DNA of 64,000 nt. Source: Peteryoungia ipomoeae (GTDB lineage: Bacteria; Pseudomonadota; Alphaproteobacteria; Rhizobiales; Rhizobiaceae). A program made the translations under genes and the position numbers. The stretch is taken from positions 1,240,001-1,304,000 of the forward strand of contig NZ_STGV01000001.1 in assembly GCF_004912165.1 (NCBI RefSeq), in the 5' to 3' direction. The notes beneath the pieces were generated by a model, which was not told the origin of the DNA, did no database searches, and saw nothing but the letters and a program-made list of their open reading frames with translations. The number at the start of each line of letters is the position of its first letter. The first letter of the stretch is position 1. Shown piece by piece: positions 3,262-20,197 of the stretch.

Positions 3262-3669
3262 TCAGACGAGTGTTGCAGGACGTGCTTCTATGATGACGAA
3301 GGCCTGAGCGTAGGGAAACTCGTCGGTTATCGTCAGGTGGACGACAGGCACATGATCTTGCGGCAAGAGCGTGGCAAGAAGCTCCGCGGCGCGGCCCGTT
3401 ACCTCCATGGTCGGGCGACCCGAGGGTTCGTTGACCACGCCCATCTCGTTCCAGAAGACGCCGCGGGCAATCCCGGTGCCGAGCGCCTTGGCCATGGCCT
3501 CTTTCGCGGCAAAACGCTTGGCATAAGAGGCTGCCTTGTCCTTGCGTCCCTCTGCCCGCTCCTGCTCATGGGCGGTGAAGCAGCGCGCCGTAAAGCGCTC
3601 GCCAAACCGTTCGATGGATTTCTCCACCCTTCTGATGTCAATCAAATCACTGCCGATACCGATGATCAT
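3262..3669 (-). CDS. acpS: Holo-[acyl-carrier-protein] synthase
   Basis: A 135-residue phosphopantetheinyl transferase that activates ACP by moving 4'-phosphopantetheine from CoA. The start [12 protein letters not shown] is canonical, with metal-binding Asp8, and the second motif [14 protein letters not shown] carries Glu57. An earlier in-frame start (3717) would lie inside the DUF2062 gene and add an unrelated N-terminus. The gene begins 2 bp after the DUF2062 coding region ends and precedes lepB by 92 bp; the two are likely co-transcribed. Confidence 0.96.
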
Positions 3670-13535: not shown

Positions 13536-13691
13536 CGCCGCCCCCCCCCTTCGCAATCATGACCATGCCCGAGAGCAAGGCGCCGTCCGCGCAGTCCGGG
13601 CGGCGTGTTCGGTCATCGCTGGAGCTGGTATCGCTTGCCTCCCGGGTCGAAGCGATGAAAGATGCATCCTTCGCAACGAGGGAGTGCTGCA

Positions 13692-14552
13692 ATGGTTGCA
13701 ATCGAGGATCGGTTCATCCCCAATGCGGATGGCTTGCAGCTGCATGTCCGGCTCTATGGTGAGCCCACGGACGCGGTGCCTGTCATATGCCTGCCCGGCC
13801 TCACGCGCAATGTTCTGGATTTCGACCGCCTGGCGCGGCTGCTTGCATCGCCGCCTCATTCTTTTCATGTTGTCAGTCTGTCCTCACGCGGACGCGGATT
13901 GTCGGATCATGATCCGGATCCCAGCCGCTACACGGTTGCGAACGAGGCCGCCGATGTGCTCGGCGTCATGCAGGCGCTCCGCATCGAAAAAGCCGCCTTC
14001 ATTGGCACCTCGCGGGGCGGCTTGATTCTGCATGTGCTGGCACTGACAGCGCCGGAGCGCATCGATCGCGCCGTTCTCAACGATATCGGCCCGGCTCTGG
14101 AGGTCGATGGCCTCAAGCAAATTCAAGAGGCGTTGAAAAAACGGAACGCGCAGAAAGATCTTGGCACCGCCGCCAAAGCCTTGCGGCACGCCTATGGCAC
14201 AGAATTCCCCCGCCTTGCGCAGGGGGACTGGGCTGAGATGGCCGAGGCACTGTTTCTTGAGCAGGAAGGTCTGCTCGTTTCCGCCTATGATACCGCGATT
14301 GGCGACCAGTTCCGCGACATGGATCTCGACACACCCCTGCCCGCGCTCTGGGAGGCATTCGACGCCCTTGCCACCCGACCCTTGATGGTGATCCGCGGCG
14401 AGCACTCGAGACTGCTGTCTCGCGAGACCGTAAAAGAGATGGCTCGCCGCCAGCCAAAAATGGCAATCGTCGAAGCGCAAGGTCAGGGCCACGCGCCACT
14501 GCTTCATCTGGACGACCTACCGAAAGAGATCGCACAGTTTCTCCTGAGATAA
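13692..14552 (+). CDS. Alpha/beta-hydrolase
   Basis: A 286-residue cytosolic hydrolase. The nucleophile elbow is GTSRGG (Ser107), the oxyanion region CLPGLTRN is near 34-40, and the catalytic His lies in GQGHAPLL near the C-terminus. The acid is probably the Glu/Asp after VIRGEHS. A GGGAG Shine-Dalgarno is about 8 nt upstream of ATG 13692, so this start is preferred over 13662. Substrate is unknown. It converges on porin 1 with a shared terminator. Confidence 0.88.
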   Translation: MVAIEDRFIPNADGLQLHVRLYGEPTDAVPVICLPGLTRNVLDFDRLARLLASPPHSFHVVSLSSRGRGLSDHDPDPSRYTVANEAADVLGVMQALRIEKAAFIGTSRGGLILHVLALTAPERIDRAVLNDIGPALEVDGLKQIQEALKKRNAQKDLGTAAKALRHAYGTEFPRLAQGDWAEMAEALFLEQEGLLVSAYDTAIGDQFRDMDLDTPLPALWEAFDALATRPLMVIRGEHSRLLSRETVKEMARRQPKMAIVEAQGQGHAPLLHLDDLPKEIAQFLLR

Positions 14553-14649: not shown

Positions 14650-15633
14650 TTAGAACGAACGGGTCAGGCGAACGAAACCAGACCAGCTGTCGCCAGCCAG
14701 ATCTTCGTCGTAGTAGTCAACCGTTGCCGAAGCCTTCAAGCCGGTTGCGATCTGGTATTCAGCCAGAAGGCCAGCGCCCCAAGCGTCGTTGCCATCGAGG
14801 AAGTCGACATCGCCCCAGTAGTTGGCAGACGGGGTGATGGTCAGCTTTTCAGTGGCCTTGAAGCCGTAAGCAGCGCCAACGGTCCACTCAGCGGTTTGAG
14901 CGTAGGTCGAGAAGCCAGAAGCGTAACCAGCGTAGAGTTCGAAGGTGCCCGGACCGAGGTCGGCAGAGACTTCACCAACAACGAGACCTTCTTCAGCGTC
15001 GAAGTCGTATGCGCCCCAAGCCGAAACGGTCGCTGCGCCGAGCGAAGCCGAAGCGAAGCCCTGTACGCCGAGGTCGTCGAAGCCAGCGGTGGTGTCCAGT
15101 TCGTCAACGCCGAGACCGACGGTGAAGGCGTCAGAAGCATAGGTGTACGAAACGGAGTCAAACTTGGCGCCATCGATGAAGGCGTCGCCTTCAGAAGCCG
15201 TGCCAACGTCGTCGAGCCAGGTCAGGAAGTAACCAGCCTTGAAGCCGCCAACCGTAATGTAAGCCTGGTCGAGCTGAACGTCGTTACCCTGGGTAGCGCT
15301 GTCGCTGTTGCCTTCGATGCGGATGTAGGAACCGATGGTGCCAACTTCCGAGTCGTTGCGGGCTTCGAAGGTGACGCGAGCGCGGGTGGTGAAGTCACCG
15401 CCGAAGTCTGCGCCATCATCCTTGTTCCAGTCGTAAGAAACGCGGATTTCGCCGCCGATCTTGAGGCAGGTCTCGGTGCCGGGGATGTAGAAGTAGCCGG
15501 TGCCGAATGCGTCGCAAACGCGAACGTATTCCATAGGCTCAGGCTCGGCAGCAACGATAGCGTCGGCAGCCTGTGCGCCAGAAACTACAGCGAGAGCTGC
15601 AGCGGAGCCGATGAGAAGGCTCTTGATGTTCAT
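14650..15633 (-). CDS. Outer-membrane porin, RopA/Porin_2 family (porin 1)
   Basis: A 327-residue beta-barrel porin. A signal peptide MNIKSLLIGSAAALAVVSGA ends at AQA, followed by the N-terminal CDAFGTGYFYIPGTETCLK segment with two Cys, typical of rhizobial RopA porins, and a C-terminal GFVRLTRSF ending in Phe for BAM recognition. A strong TGGAGG Shine-Dalgarno precedes the ATG. Codon use is biased towards GCT/GTT/GGT, as in highly expressed genes. Its first 203 bp, including the ribosome-binding site, are identical to porin 2 on the other strand. The mature barrel sequences diverge. Confidence 0.95.
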   Translation of the reverse strand: MNIKSLLIGSAAALAVVSGAQAADAIVAAEPEPMEYVRVCDAFGTGYFYIPGTETCLKIGGEIRVSYDWNKDDGADFGGDFTTRARVTFEARNDSEVGTIGSYIRIEGNSDSATQGNDVQLDQAYITVGGFKAGYFLTWLDDVGTASEGDAFIDGAKFDSVSYTYASDAFTVGLGVDELDTTAGFDDLGVQGFASASLGAATVSAWGAYDFDAEEGLVVGEVSADLGPGTFELYAGYASGFSTYAQTAEWTVGAAYGFKATEKLTITPSANYWGDVDFLDGNDAWGAGLLAEYQIATGLKASATVDYYDEDLAGDSWSGFVRLTRSF

Positions 15634-15650
15634 TATTGACCTCCAGTCAA
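15448..15650 (-). repeat. Left arm of a 203-bp perfect inverted repeat
   Basis: Read on the minus strand this arm starts TTGACTGGAGGTCAATAATG and runs through the signal peptide to GGCGGCGAA. I compared it base by base with 16577-16779 and saw no difference over 203 bp; identity stops abruptly at both ends. It covers the ribosome-binding site, signal peptide and first part of the mature porin. Confidence 0.93.
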
Positions 15651-16223
15651 GTTTCGTATGGGTCTGGGTTATACGGCTGAAAGACAGCGTTCCCTGCCCA
15701 TCCCCGTCGGTTTCAGAAGACGGACGATCCACCGCCTCGCTTCCGATGTTGAAAATACAAAACATCTCGGGTCATGCAATCCGCAAAGAGAGGAATGGGG
15801 GATTGAATCCGGCCCTTCCGGTCGGGCTGTTGCTGAAACGCCACAAAACGAGCCCCCAGGATCGCTCAAACTTTACCTTTCGTTAAGAAACGCGTGTGGA
15901 AACGGGCACTTAAGGAAGCGCTCCCTATATATAGAGGGGATCGGTGAGGTGTGGATCGAACCCGTGAATTCAGGATTCCCAGGGCGAATCCGTGAGTCTT
16001 TGCGGTTTCATTCATCAGCTGAGAGGCTGCTCGGACCTTGCGTGACGCGCTTGCCGGTCCGTCCGCAGGCCAATTTCCGGCCTCCATTCAGAAGAATCGC
16101 TGCGTTTCCCGGAGAATCGCGGGAGTGCAGTCTGCGATTCTCCTTACTGCAGCTGCTGCGCACCTTCTGAGCTGGGCGTTTTAAACCACGATGCGGAATA
16201 ATGTGTGCGAGAGAGAAAATCCC

Positions 16224-16252
16224 TTGCATTCAGTGATTCAACGCAATAATCA
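16224..16252 (+). promoter_or_regulatory. tRNA-Ser promoter
   Basis: TTGCAT (16224-16229), a 17-nt spacer and TAATCA (16247-16252) lie 9 bp upstream of the first tRNA base, a good sigma70-type fit. Confidence 0.6.
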
Positions 16253-16261
16253 GGCCCGACC

Positions 16262-16352
16262 GGAGAGGTGGCCGAGTGGTCGAAGGCGCTCCCCTGCTAA
16301 GGGAGTATACGTCAAAAGCGTATCGAGGGTTCGAATCCCTTCCTCTCCGCCA
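16262..16352 (+). tRNA. tRNA-Ser(GCU)
   Basis: A class II tRNA with acceptor GGAGAGG (16262-16268) pairing to CCTCTCC (16342-16348), discriminator G and encoded CCA. The anticodon loop CTGCTAA carries GCT (16296-16298), flanked by CTCCC/GGGAG. A long variable arm and the GGTTCGAATCC T-loop are present. It reads AGC and AGU serine codons. It lies between the two porin promoters. Confidence 0.97.
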
Positions 16353-16508
16353 CTGCCTGGATGGCAAAACTCCCCTTTCATGACATCAGATCTTGCGCCC
16401 GGCGCTGCGATTCTCCGTGCCGTTTCAGGCACTGCATTGTGCCTTGCACGGACGTTTCTTGACTTCCTTCAGTCGGATTTTTGCCGTCACAATGAATATT
16501 CGCAAAAT

Positions 16509-16539
16509 CTGAAATTAAACTAAATAATTGAAATATAAT
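16509..16539 (+). promoter_or_regulatory. Possible porin 2 promoter
   Basis: A perfect TATAAT (16534-16539) is about 55 nt upstream of the porin 2 ATG. The -35 is weak (CTGAAA at 16509-16514, 19-nt spacer), in a very AT-rich stretch. Confidence 0.45.
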
Positions 16540-16576
16540 AGCTAGTTTCTCCAATCCCCCTTGCCGACCTCTATAA

Positions 16577-16779
16577 TTGACTGGAGGTCAATAATGAACA
16601 TCAAGAGCCTTCTCATCGGCTCCGCTGCAGCTCTCGCTGTAGTTTCTGGCGCACAGGCTGCCGACGCTATCGTTGCTGCCGAGCCTGAGCCTATGGAATA
16701 CGTTCGCGTTTGCGACGCATTCGGCACCGGCTACTTCTACATCCCCGGCACCGAGACCTGCCTCAAGATCGGCGGCGAA
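16577..16779 (+). repeat. Right arm of the 203-bp perfect inverted repeat
   Basis: Identical in sequence to 15448-15650 read on the opposite strand. It includes the TGGAGG ribosome-binding site and codons 1-62 of porin 2. Confidence 0.93.
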
Positions 16780-17604
16780 GTTCGTGCGACCCTCGGCTTC
16801 AACGACGCAGAGGACCTTGGCCTGGATGAAGACCAGAGCTTCAACTCGACTGTTCGTGCTCGCATTTCCTTCGAAGCCAAGAACGACTCGGAAATCGGCA
16901 CGATCGGTTCCTACATCCGTCTCGAAGCCAACCAGGGCGCGCTCTCTGACATCAACACCGCGTTTGGCGTTGAGCAGGCTTACATCACCGTTGGCGGTTT
17001 CAAGGTCGGTCGCGTTCTGACCTGGGCTGACGATTGGGGTCTGGCTGGCGAATCCGACGACTTCTTCGGTGAGGCTCGCTTCAACACCGTTTCCTACACC
17101 TACACGTCTGATGCCTTCACCGTCGGTCTCGGCGTTGATGACCTCTCTGACGACTACGCGTTTATCACCGACGACAACGAAGTTGGCGTTCAGGGTGTTG
17201 TAACCGCTGCTTTCGGCCCGGCTTCGCTCGCAGTAAACGGCGTTTACGACTTCGCAGTCGAAGAAGGCGCAATCGGCGGCGTTCTCACCGCTGACCTCGG
17301 CCCGGGCACGCTCGGCATCGCTGGTGCCTACGCAACCGGTCAGTCTGCTGCTTACGACTTCGCTTCCGAGTGGACTGTTGGTGCAGCTTACACCTTCAAC
17401 GCTACCGAGAAGCTCGCTGTAACGGCTCAGGCTGTTTACTGGGGTGACTACGGCTTCAGCTCGTCTGACGCCTGGGGCGCAGACCTGCTCGTCGAGTACA
17501 AGCTGGCACAGGGCCTCAAGGCTTCTGCTGATGTTCAGTACACCGACATCGACGACGGTGACGACAACTTCGAAGGCTTCGTTCGCCTGACCCGTTCGTT
17601 CTAA
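16594..17604 (+). CDS. Outer-membrane porin, RopA/Porin_2 family (porin 2)
   Basis: A 336-residue porin with the same signal peptide and the same first 62 residues as porin 1, then a diverged barrel, with conserved islands such as SEIGTIGSYIR, EWTVGAAYTFNATEKL and the terminal EGFVRLTRSF. It forms general diffusion channels in the outer membrane by family. Codon use is strongly biased (GCT, GTT, CGT), implying high expression. It faces away from porin 1, with the tRNA-Ser gene between the promoters, and is followed by a hairpin and then the recombinase gene. Confidence 0.95.
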   Translation: MNIKSLLIGSAAALAVVSGAQAADAIVAAEPEPMEYVRVCDAFGTGYFYIPGTETCLKIGGEVRATLGFNDAEDLGLDEDQSFNSTVRARISFEAKNDSEIGTIGSYIRLEANQGALSDINTAFGVEQAYITVGGFKVGRVLTWADDWGLAGESDDFFGEARFNTVSYTYTSDAFTVGLGVDDLSDDYAFITDDNEVGVQGVVTAAFGPASLAVNGVYDFAVEEGAIGGVLTADLGPGTLGIAGAYATGQSAAYDFASEWTVGAAYTFNATEKLAVTAQAVYWGDYGFSSSDAWGADLLVEYKLAQGLKASADVQYTDIDDGDDNFEGFVRLTRSF

Positions 17605-17668: not shown

Positions 17669-17805
17669 TTCATTCATTCACGCAAATCTCTCGCTGGAAC
17701 AATAGGTTCCCCTCCCCTCGCGGGCTGGTGATCCTGAATTTTGGAGGTCAGATCGGACGCATCTTGAAGGCTTGAATCGAGCCGCTCGCAAAAGTTTGTG
17801 CAGTT

Positions 17806-18979: not shown

Positions 18980-20197
18980 TCAGGCCAGGAGCTGCTTCAC
19001 ATCTGCGTTCTGATCTCTAAGCAGGGCACGATCGACCGCGGCGCCAGTTTCCAAAAGCTTCTTGCCCGTCACATAGGCCTTGGCATCGTTGATCGCATCG
19101 ACCGCCACAAAAATGCCCTCTCGGAAATACCAGACCGATGAGCTTCCAGCACGGCTGCCAGCGCGGACAATGGTCTCGTCATAGCCCAGGTTGAAGCCCG
19201 CGATCTGAAGCTTGACGTCATATTGGTCTGACCAGAACCACGGTTTTGGTCGGTAGGGCTCGGTTCCGCCAACCAGCAGCGCGGCAATCGCTTCCGCCTG
19301 GTCCACGGCGTTCTGGACCGATTCCAACCGCACACGCTCACCCTTCCAAACCTGAACGGCACAATCGCCAGCGGCAAAAATGAGCGGGTCGCCCGTGCGC
19401 GCAAAGTCGTCGACGACGATGCCGTTCATCGTTTCAAGGCCTGCCTTGGCTGCCAGTAGATCATTTGCCTGCACGCCGATTCCGACAACAACCAGATCGG
19501 CGTCGACGGTGCTACCATCGGAGAGTTCGGCAGCGACCACCTGACCGTCATTGCCGATCAGCCGGACCAGCCCGGTCTTTTCCCTGATATCGACGCCTTC
19601 GGCCTGGTGGATGGCTCGGATACTGTCTGCGGTTTCCTTGGCCGCCACGCGGGCGAGTATCCGGTCGGCCATTTCGATCAGGACAACATCCAGGCCAAGT
19701 TTGCGCGCAACTGCCGCGGCTTCCAGGCCGATATAGCCGCCACCAACAATCAGAAGCCGCCGCCCCGCCTTCATCTCGGCGGAGAGAGCATCGGCATCGG
19801 CCTTGTCCCTGACAGTGTAAACACTCGCAAGATCGCCGCCGATCGCCGAAGGGAGCCGGCGCGGCGTTGCACCCGTTGCAAACACCAGATGACCGTAGTC
19901 AATCGTCGTTCCATCGAATAGCCGCACGGCCTGTGCCTGCCGATCAATCTCTTCGACCGGTGTCGACAGGCGCAAGTCCACATTGTTTTCCGAATACCAT
20001 TCTGCGGGTCTGAACAGCAGCCGCTCGAATGTCATCTCACCCAGAAGGTATTTCTTCGAGAGTGGTGGACGCTGATAAGGGGCTACGGGTTCGGAGCCGA
20101 GCATTGTGATGGGACGCGTATCGCCGAGGGAGCGCAGTTTTGCGGCAAGCGCAAACCCTGCCTGTCCTGCACCAATGATTACCAGATTGTCTGCCAC
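18980..20197 (-). CDS. FAD/NAD-dependent ferredoxin reductase-like oxidoreductase
   Basis: A 405-residue pyridine-nucleotide-disulphide family flavoprotein. FAD-binding GAGQAG at 9-14, the APYQRPPLSKKYL segment typical of rhodocoxin/putidaredoxin/BphA4-type ferredoxin reductases, a second Rossmann motif LIVGGGYIGLEAA near 150, and FAAGDCA near 270. There is no CxxC redox pair. It probably transfers electrons from NAD(P)H to a ferredoxin for a mono- or dioxygenase, but no partner is adjacent. The start is GTG at 20197 (MADNLVIIGAG). Confidence 0.88.
   Translation of the reverse strand: MADNLVIIGAGQAGFALAAKLRSLGDTRPITMLGSEPVAPYQRPPLSKKYLLGEMTFERLLFRPAEWYSENNVDLRLSTPVEEIDRQAQAVRLFDGTTIDYGHLVFATGATPRRLPSAIGGDLASVYTVRDKADADALSAEMKAGRRLLIVGGGYIGLEAAAVARKLGLDVVLIEMADRILARVAAKETADSIRAIHQAEGVDIREKTGLVRLIGNDGQVVAAELSDGSTVDADLVVVGIGVQANDLLAAKAGLETMNGIVVDDFARTGDPLIFAAGDCAVQVWKGERVRLESVQNAVDQAEAIAALLVGGTEPYRPKPWFWSDQYDVKLQIAGFNLGYDETIVRAGSRAGSSSVWYFREGIFVAVDAINDAKAYVTGKKLLETGAAVDRALLRDQNADVKQLLA

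Follow-up and report, generated by a model that had tools for sequence, protein, structure and literature searches.

Two porin genes stand head to head in a 64,000-nt stretch of the Peteryoungia ipomoeae genome (contig NZ_STGV01000001.1, positions 1,240,001 to 1,304,000; this whole stretch is called the window), and their 5′ ends are identical and oppositely oriented. This layout raises the question of whether the DNA between the two genes is an invertible segment that sets which porin lies behind which upstream region and, if so, which enzyme inverts it. Comparison with relatives showed that the segment occurs in both orientations among species, that the breakpoints lie within the identical arms, and that a gene for a tyrosine recombinase (TyrR) is associated with such pairs. 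We consider it reasonably probable that the two major porins belong to an inversion unit linked to a recombinase, with TyrR most likely as its dedicated enzyme.

The inverted arms and the segment between them

A repeat search recovered arms at 15443–15650 and 16577–16784, 208 nt long, 99% complementary, and 926 nt apart. When the genes were aligned at their start codons, identity was exact from −17 to +186 (203 nt, 62 codons), so the search and the alignment confirmed the perfect 203-bp inverted repeat at 15448–15650 and 16577–16779 described in the original prediction. Identity in 30-nt windows across the arm was 17, 30, and 70% in the first three, 100% in each of the next six, and 60, 47, and 23% in the last three; because these values drop steeply at each end, both edges are sharp. 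The whole proteins of porin 1 and porin 2 are 62% identical, and 203 perfect bases are therefore far above the background similarity of the pair. The sharp ends and the divergence of the remaining gene bodies, which had also been predicted, were thus both found, and the segment is flanked by inverted repeats in the way of an expression switch that works by DNA inversion. The features concerned are listed below in window positions (RBS, ribosome-binding site).

14650–15633, reverse strand: porin 1, Porin_2 family (PF02530, 1.8e-64), TyrR-distal and linked to P1 in the window
16594–17604, forward strand: porin 2, Porin_2 family (PF02530, 2.8e-71), TyrR-adjacent and linked to P2 in the window
15448–15650, reverse strand: inverted arm A, spanning porin 1 from the RBS through codon 62 and matching arm B at all 203 nt
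16577–16779, forward strand: inverted arm B, spanning porin 2 from the RBS through codon 62 and matching arm A at all 203 nt
15651–16576, between the arms: 926-bp candidate invertible segment, found inverted against collinear flanks between L034 and L070
15637–15649, reverse strand: motif TGACTGGAGGTCA on the inner boundary of arm A; serves as RBS and is a candidate site of recombination
16578–16590, forward strand: motif TGACTGGAGGTCA on the inner boundary of arm B; candidate site of recombination
15651–15800, reverse strand: P1, the porin 1 upstream/leader region, which contains the CCCAGACCC box; conserved in patches as far as ~15910
16353–16576, forward strand: P2, upstream region of porin 2 from the tRNA-Ser to arm B; weak conservation
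16262–16352, forward strand: tRNA-Ser(GCT), within the segment
17798–18832, forward strand: TyrR, tyrosine recombinase (PF00589, 1e-26); probable start ATG 17900, from the reading frame only

Searched with porin 2, the 23-contig window genome held only this Porin_2 pair, and a sequence search for solved structures of porin 2 at E 0.001 found none. The tRNA-Ser expected between the arms was present at 16262–16352; it alone was matched in an Rfam search at gathering scores, and it is the sole close copy in the window genome, other matches having 78–79% identity.

Of the 34 full pairs of the genus, 33 become exactly identical at a point from −16 to −22, and 36 of 38 family pairs do so at a point from −16 to −21 (arm statistics are without L038, L049, and L067, whose 5′ ends are broken or missing). 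This upstream edge coincides with TGACTGGAGGTCA, which is both RBS and a short palindrome; its first base is altered in one arm of L120, L144, and L153. The exact crossover point could not be placed, the arms being too alike. At +139, five of the 34 genus genomes, in both states (G002, G017, G025, G030, and G031), have T in the TyrR-distal and A in the TyrR-adjacent porin, a hint that would put the crossover upstream of +139 but comes from too few genomes for a claim.

Orientation of the segment among relatives

In the genus, 63 genomes were searched and the locus was examined in 53. Members with a head-to-head pair largely keep the gene order dapA-SLT-hydrolase-porin-[segment]-porin-TyrR-reductase, with two flank markers assigned by profile match and synteny:

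13662–14552, forward strand: alpha/beta hydrolase, left flank marker
18980–20197, reverse strand: ferredoxin reductase-like gene, right flank marker

Within this order, the tRNA-Ser of the segment points toward TyrR in some members and toward the hydrolase in others. Among 38 labeled genus genomes (including G008, G013, and G032, which lack TyrR, and G027 and G039, with one arm at a contig end), 16 had the orientation of the window and 22 the opposite one; a tree built from the concatenated sequences of six flanking proteins requires at least eight changes. The comparison was also made family-wide, on 87 loci that each have two exact arm motifs, with identical TyrR sequences counted once and orientation assigned according to the porin that bears the conserved CCCAGACCC box of P1. 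Sixty of these loci were oriented like the window (one, L138, by a score difference of a single base) and 27 oppositely, with at least 11 changes on a TyrR tree that was built quickly and carries long-branch warnings. Thus, one fixed orientation in all relatives, the outcome that the original prediction had said would speak against a switch, was not found, and both orientations exist among species.

Six pairs of opposite-state loci, hand-picked for that state, were aligned. In each, the segment was inverted, whereas the flanks and porin bodies were collinear to within 5 nt of the motif (in the pair L046/L080, the left side comprises just 80 nt before a contig end). Among the six pairs are Mesorhizobium huakuii and M. 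intechi (L228/L233), Shinella fusca and S. sumterensis (L204/L202), and the window locus (L034) with that of G062 (L070). For 68 porin bodies, the nearest body was at the same position in another genome in 50 cases, at a different position in another genome in 12, and the body's own partner in six. Because the porin bodies mostly stay with their flanks, the breakpoints lie within the arms. The predicted outcome of recombination between the arms, inversion of the segment and exchange of the porin upstream regions with both proteins unaltered, is therefore what the relatives display.

Assembly errors at a 200-bp inverted repeat could in principle produce such differences. Contigs end inside the arms in six genus genomes (G001, G006, G022, G027, G039, and G045), and the single-contig metagenome genome G049 lacks the entire segment. 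However, single-contig genomes hold both states (one in G003 and G238, the opposite one in G278 and G166), and orientation clusters on the tree rather than being random. For these two reasons, assembly error was rejected as the source of the opposite orientations and is considered very improbable. The inversion unit itself may account for the contigs of some relatives that end at this locus.

The clustering also bears on the rate of inversion. Orientation tracks phylogeny, with 11 changes compared with a mean of 23.3 for shuffled labels (minimum 17, 1000 shuffles), and several clades are uniform, indicating slow or strongly biased flipping over evolutionary time. Both features argue against fast, unbiased flipping; fast switching with a favored state in culture may be compatible with them. 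The window may retain an older state of its clade, and a flip on its own branch is not claimed.

These data also bear on an explanation in which the similarity of the 5′ ends is maintained by gene conversion alone and the orientation differences are rare neutral accidents with no regulatory role. Such accidents would fit the uniform clades and the deficit of changes relative to shuffled labels, and passages of PMC7050475 on Brucella omp2 provide a precedent for conversion between porins. Three points stand against this explanation: the inversions number at least 11 across several genera, a recombinase is linked to the locus, and the upstream edge of exact identity falls in the same narrow range in nearly all pairs (33 of 34 and 36 of 38, as given above). 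We regard conversion alone as improbable.

Concerted evolution of the arms and the linked recombinase

The arms were compared between loci with TyrR (TyrR+) and without it (TyrR−). Among TyrR+ pairs in which both motifs are exact, all 65 had the same motif-to-ATG linker in their two members, although 10 types of linker occur; among TyrR− pairs, 11 of 20 did. The exact run from the ATG had a median of 146 nt in 71 TyrR+ pairs versus 17 nt in 31 TyrR− pairs, and identity over the first 150 nt reached 98% or more in 56 of 71 versus 5 of 31 pairs; identities are ungapped, so that indels lower some values, and G131 and G020 each contribute three of the 31 TyrR− pairs. These counts cover G041, G419, and G112, and G032, without TyrR, is not among the TyrR+ pairs; G431 and G273, which have TyrR fragments, belong to neither group.

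The ratio of third-position mismatch within pairs to that between loci was then followed over 0–270 nt (L043, L130, and L151 left aside). In the genus (32 loci), it was 0, 0.07, 0.10, 0, 0.25, 0.69, 0.85, and 0.93, so that it grew from zero at the start codon to 0.93 past 210 nt; in the family (36 loci), the climb was less even (0.13, 0.15, 0.14, 0.19, 0.39, 0.23, 0.45, and 0.64). An arm's own partner was a nearest neighbor in 21 of 34 genus genomes, compared with 3 of 34 for the bodies (G013 and G032 are included). By these comparisons, the arms evolve in concert, most strongly at the motif end, and the bodies mostly do not. Gene conversion, which the original prediction had named as the alternative to a switch, is thus also real, and the locus is a head-to-head Porin_2 pair under gene conversion, as at Brucella omp2.

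The reading frame of TyrR starts at 17798 (GTG) or 17900 (ATG), 0.2–0.3 kb past the porin 2 stop and ~1.0–1.1 kb from the arm, in agreement with the predicted distance of 1.1 kb. Its catalytic domain scored 94.2 bits against the PF00589 cut-off of 27.1. The catalytic set of tyrosine recombinases is R-K-H-R-H-Y, and the candidate residues R173, K196, H254, R257, H280, and Y289 of TyrR were invariant in 14 and in 23 sequences. The AlphaFold model (predicted local distance difference test, pLDDT, 80.1; predicted template modeling score, pTM, 0.57; low confidence at residues 1–33 and 281–292) matched the integrases of Tn1549 (E 1.1e-9) and lambda (E 1.6e-9) in Foldseek, and the predicted fold is that of a tyrosine recombinase. 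By score, TyrR is not XerD (87.4 vs 329.6 bits) or XerC (81.2 vs 335.15 bits), and it falls below the cut-offs of the invertase subfamilies NF007371 (38.6 vs 222 bits) and NF007370 (31.2 vs 221 bits).

Of 394 family genomes, 138 have a TyrR match at E ≤ 1e-60, and these represent 45 of 109 genera; the named relatives suggest that this family sample is Rhizobiaceae in the broad sense. Forty of the 138 loci, from 29 genera, were examined, picked by TyrR only and mostly from few-contig assemblies. In 39 of the 40, a porin match that reads the same way lies upstream of TyrR, and none of the other searched genes intervenes (in L138 and L144, the match covers the N-terminal part only). Among 38 family porin pairs, 31 were head to head and seven had TyrR between outward-starting porins. 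Matching arms are kept in both topologies, and in either of them arm recombination would swap the upstream regions. TyrR was present in 44 of the 63 genus genomes. Eleven of the 19 genus genomes without it were inspected: seven have tandem porins (G004, G014, G015, G050, G051, G054, and G056), G020 has several porins, G008 has a broken second porin, G013 has a degenerate motif, and G032 retains a head-to-head pair with both motifs.

The motif precedes ATGAA in 299 of the 394 family genomes, and a reversed-pattern control gave 0 among the matches listed. The ratio of opposite-direction to same-direction motif pairs was 96:1 in TyrR+ and 15:35 in TyrR− genomes (Fisher 8e-21, kinship ignored), with motif orientation being arbitrary where the sites sit on separate contigs, both of them limits that weigh against our interpretation. 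Of the 15 opposite pairs without TyrR, nine are far apart or on different contigs, two lie beside TyrR fragments (G273 and G431), and four are close pairs (G090, G188, G271, and G324). Fewer than two motif sites were found in 41 of the 138 TyrR+ genomes. Judged by genomic context, TyrR is no bystander, its link to the porin pair being far stronger than proximity.

The main rival to a TyrR-driven switch is RecA-dependent homologous recombination between the ~200-bp arms, which would perform both inversion and conversion while TyrR, although linked, is otherwise occupied. Arms of this length should suffice for homologous exchange. Concerted arm evolution would likewise follow from it, and head-to-head pairs do persist in genomes lacking TyrR, two of six with arms still at least 98% identical. 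As a group, however, pairs without TyrR have less perfect arms, as judged from the median exact run, and TyrR-less genomes with two motifs mostly have them in the same direction. The porin upstream of TyrR in 39 of 40 loci and the invariant candidate catalytic residues also speak against this explanation. We regard the RecA explanation as unlikely, and as the strongest of the rivals.

Several relatives have unusual versions of the locus. In G049 (OY288189.1; L067/L160), the porins are fused near codons 31–51 (~5750–5790 in L067) and the segment with its tRNA-Ser is gone, probably because the assembly collapsed at the inverted arms. L038 (G008) lacks TyrR; its TyrR-side porin is broken down to a fragment, and the motif is still there. 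In L149 (G443), two opposed TyrR-like genes lie between the porins, in the order porin, TyrR, reversed TyrR, reversed porin. The inter-porin segment of L056 (G031) is 3.9 kb long instead of the usual ~0.95 kb, and in L071 (G041), the tRNA-Ser segment is flanked by a pair of porins on either side; of these four, the motif is present on the inner two only. Four same-direction porins, each with the motif, surround TyrR at 3500–8200 of L201 (Neorhizobium galegae). Finally, the porin-TyrR module is reversed relative to the hydrolase-SLT-dapA flank in L124, L127, L140, L142, and L150, and larger module inversions therefore also occur in the family.

Upstream regions, proposed mechanism, and known systems

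Thirty genus segments were aligned in the orientation of the tRNA (L038, L043, L049, L056, L057, L058, and L067 are not among them). P1 was mostly at least 90% conserved over ~150 bp and patchily over a further ~100 bp, whereas on the P2 side, conservation was largely confined to the tRNA with its vicinity and to the arm edge. In the segment, a sigma-70 scan showed no excess (1 found vs 0.7 expected), and with strong conservation on the porin 1 side only, the earlier claim that both promoters lie between the arms was not borne out. The ~150-nt P1 block (15651–15800) is possibly a regulatory 5′ leader, and P1-type sequence precedes a motif-bearing porin in several TyrR-less genomes. P1 would be the main expression site, facing porin 1 in the window. 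In the leader on the P2 side of the window (16566–16590), GACCTCTA can pair with the RBS TGGAGGTC in a predicted hairpin of −11.8 kcal/mol (z −2.7), and at least 6 nt complementary to the motif were found on 30 of 87 P2 sides versus 1 of 87 P1 sides (shuffled, 5%).

In the proposed mechanism, the segment bears P1 at one end and the tRNA-Ser with P2 at the other, and a crossover between the identical inverted arms would flip its 926 bp and put either porin body behind P1. The common first 62 codons would leave both proteins unchanged upon exchange. TyrR, the most likely catalyst, would act at or near TGACTGGAGGTCA on the inner arm edge, a putative recombination site, and exchange strands between the arms; repeated strand exchange together with conversion from the motif would keep the arms identical. 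On the sequence evidence, the segment probably swaps which porin lies under the main promoter, and we infer that it flips within populations. The benefit would lie in the exchange of a porin usable by phages as a receptor, or in permeability.

Several observations weigh against this mechanism, in addition to the arbitrary motif orientations and the phylogenetic clustering noted above. The motif is an RBS and stays on single porins in TyrR-less genomes; because of this role and persistence, it is not solely a recombinase site. G090, G188, G271, and G324 have close head-to-head motif pairs with no TyrR at the locus, TyrR-less G032 keeps a head-to-head pair with both motifs, and G338 (L135) has TyrR without an upstream porin. 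In Neorhizobium galegae (L201) and in L187, TyrR lies among same-direction porins, and recombination between their same-direction motifs would therefore delete rather than invert. Arms are less than 90% identical in seven of the 71 TyrR+ pairs (L120, L122, L130, L139, L140, L151, and L152), and two of six TyrR-less head-to-head pairs remain at least 98% identical over 150 nt, so the rule that joins TyrR to near-perfect arms is not strict. The predicted probability that GGAGG is unpaired also has a median of 0.006 at P1 and 0.22 at P2.

P2 as a translational OFF side was considered and dropped, since the predicted accessibility of GGAGG is lower, not higher, at P1; for the same reason, no ON or OFF side is claimed from folding.

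If the proposed inversion unit is real, the displayed porin would be set by DNA orientation throughout the family, while reference genomes freeze one state, and the porin gene conversion of Brucella omp2, phage resistance via porin recombination, and DNA inversion switching would be linked. A more tentative extension, somewhat less likely than not, is that a dedicated TyrR beside the main porins in dozens of genera, including Sinorhizobium, Shinella, and Mesorhizobium, maintains a reversible two-porin switch through which a pre-existing minority displaying a different porin would escape phages whose receptor is the other one. The locus offers a directly testable enzyme-site pair in laboratory rhizobia.

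Passages of PMC7050475 describe Brucella omp2a and omp2b as linked porins in opposite orientation, ~830 bp apart, that exchange sequence by gene conversion, with only omp2b reported as expressed, and state that Brucella porins of this type set sugar permeability. The window locus resembles omp2, as described there, in its two linked, opposed porin genes that exchange sequence by gene conversion. It differs in that mainly the 5′ ends are homogenized, a recombinase adjoins the pair, and the spacer is found inverted among relatives. In the main text of PMC7050475, a term search matched none of integrase, recombinase, inversion, promoter, or tRNA, and no Brucella record was present among the named loci, the best 80 of 343.

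Linked porins are also the likeness to ropA1-ropA2 of Sinorhizobium and Agrobacterium. According to passages of PMC10132094 and PMC6256558, phages of rhizobia use porins of this type as receptors, RopA1 of S. meliloti is a phage receptor, and a phage-resistant Agrobacterium clone carried a ropA1-ropA2 fusion that arose by a 1,203-bp deletion. Those passages mention neither inversion nor a recombinase, and 'invers' was unmatched in PMC10132094, which sets that system apart from the window locus. The S. meliloti record L194 has the order porin-TyrR-porin with opposed motifs, and its porins are probably RopA1 and RopA2.

FimB and FimE are tyrosine recombinases beside a promoter-sized invertible segment, and the window locus shares this arrangement. 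It differs in that TyrR lies far under the invertase cut-offs and the arms are the 5′ ends of genes, not short sites. The sap genes of Campylobacter fetus share their 5′ ends. As in the switches of C. fetus sapA (PMC3887049) and Lactobacillus acidophilus slp (both cited in PMC4902306), where inversion sets which surface-protein gene follows a promoter, the window locus would place one of two surface-protein genes behind its main upstream region. Unlike those systems, it has porins instead of S-layer proteins and a linked tyrosine recombinase, and its segment holds a single-copy tRNA gene, with inversion shown between species only. Among the titles and abstract openings listed from the open-licence literature, none on an invertible porin segment in this family was found, which is weak evidence, as subscription papers lie mostly outside it. 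In our reading, the locus represents a new, family-wide form of inversion-based expression switching, with a layout akin to those of Brucella omp2 and Sinorhizobium ropA.

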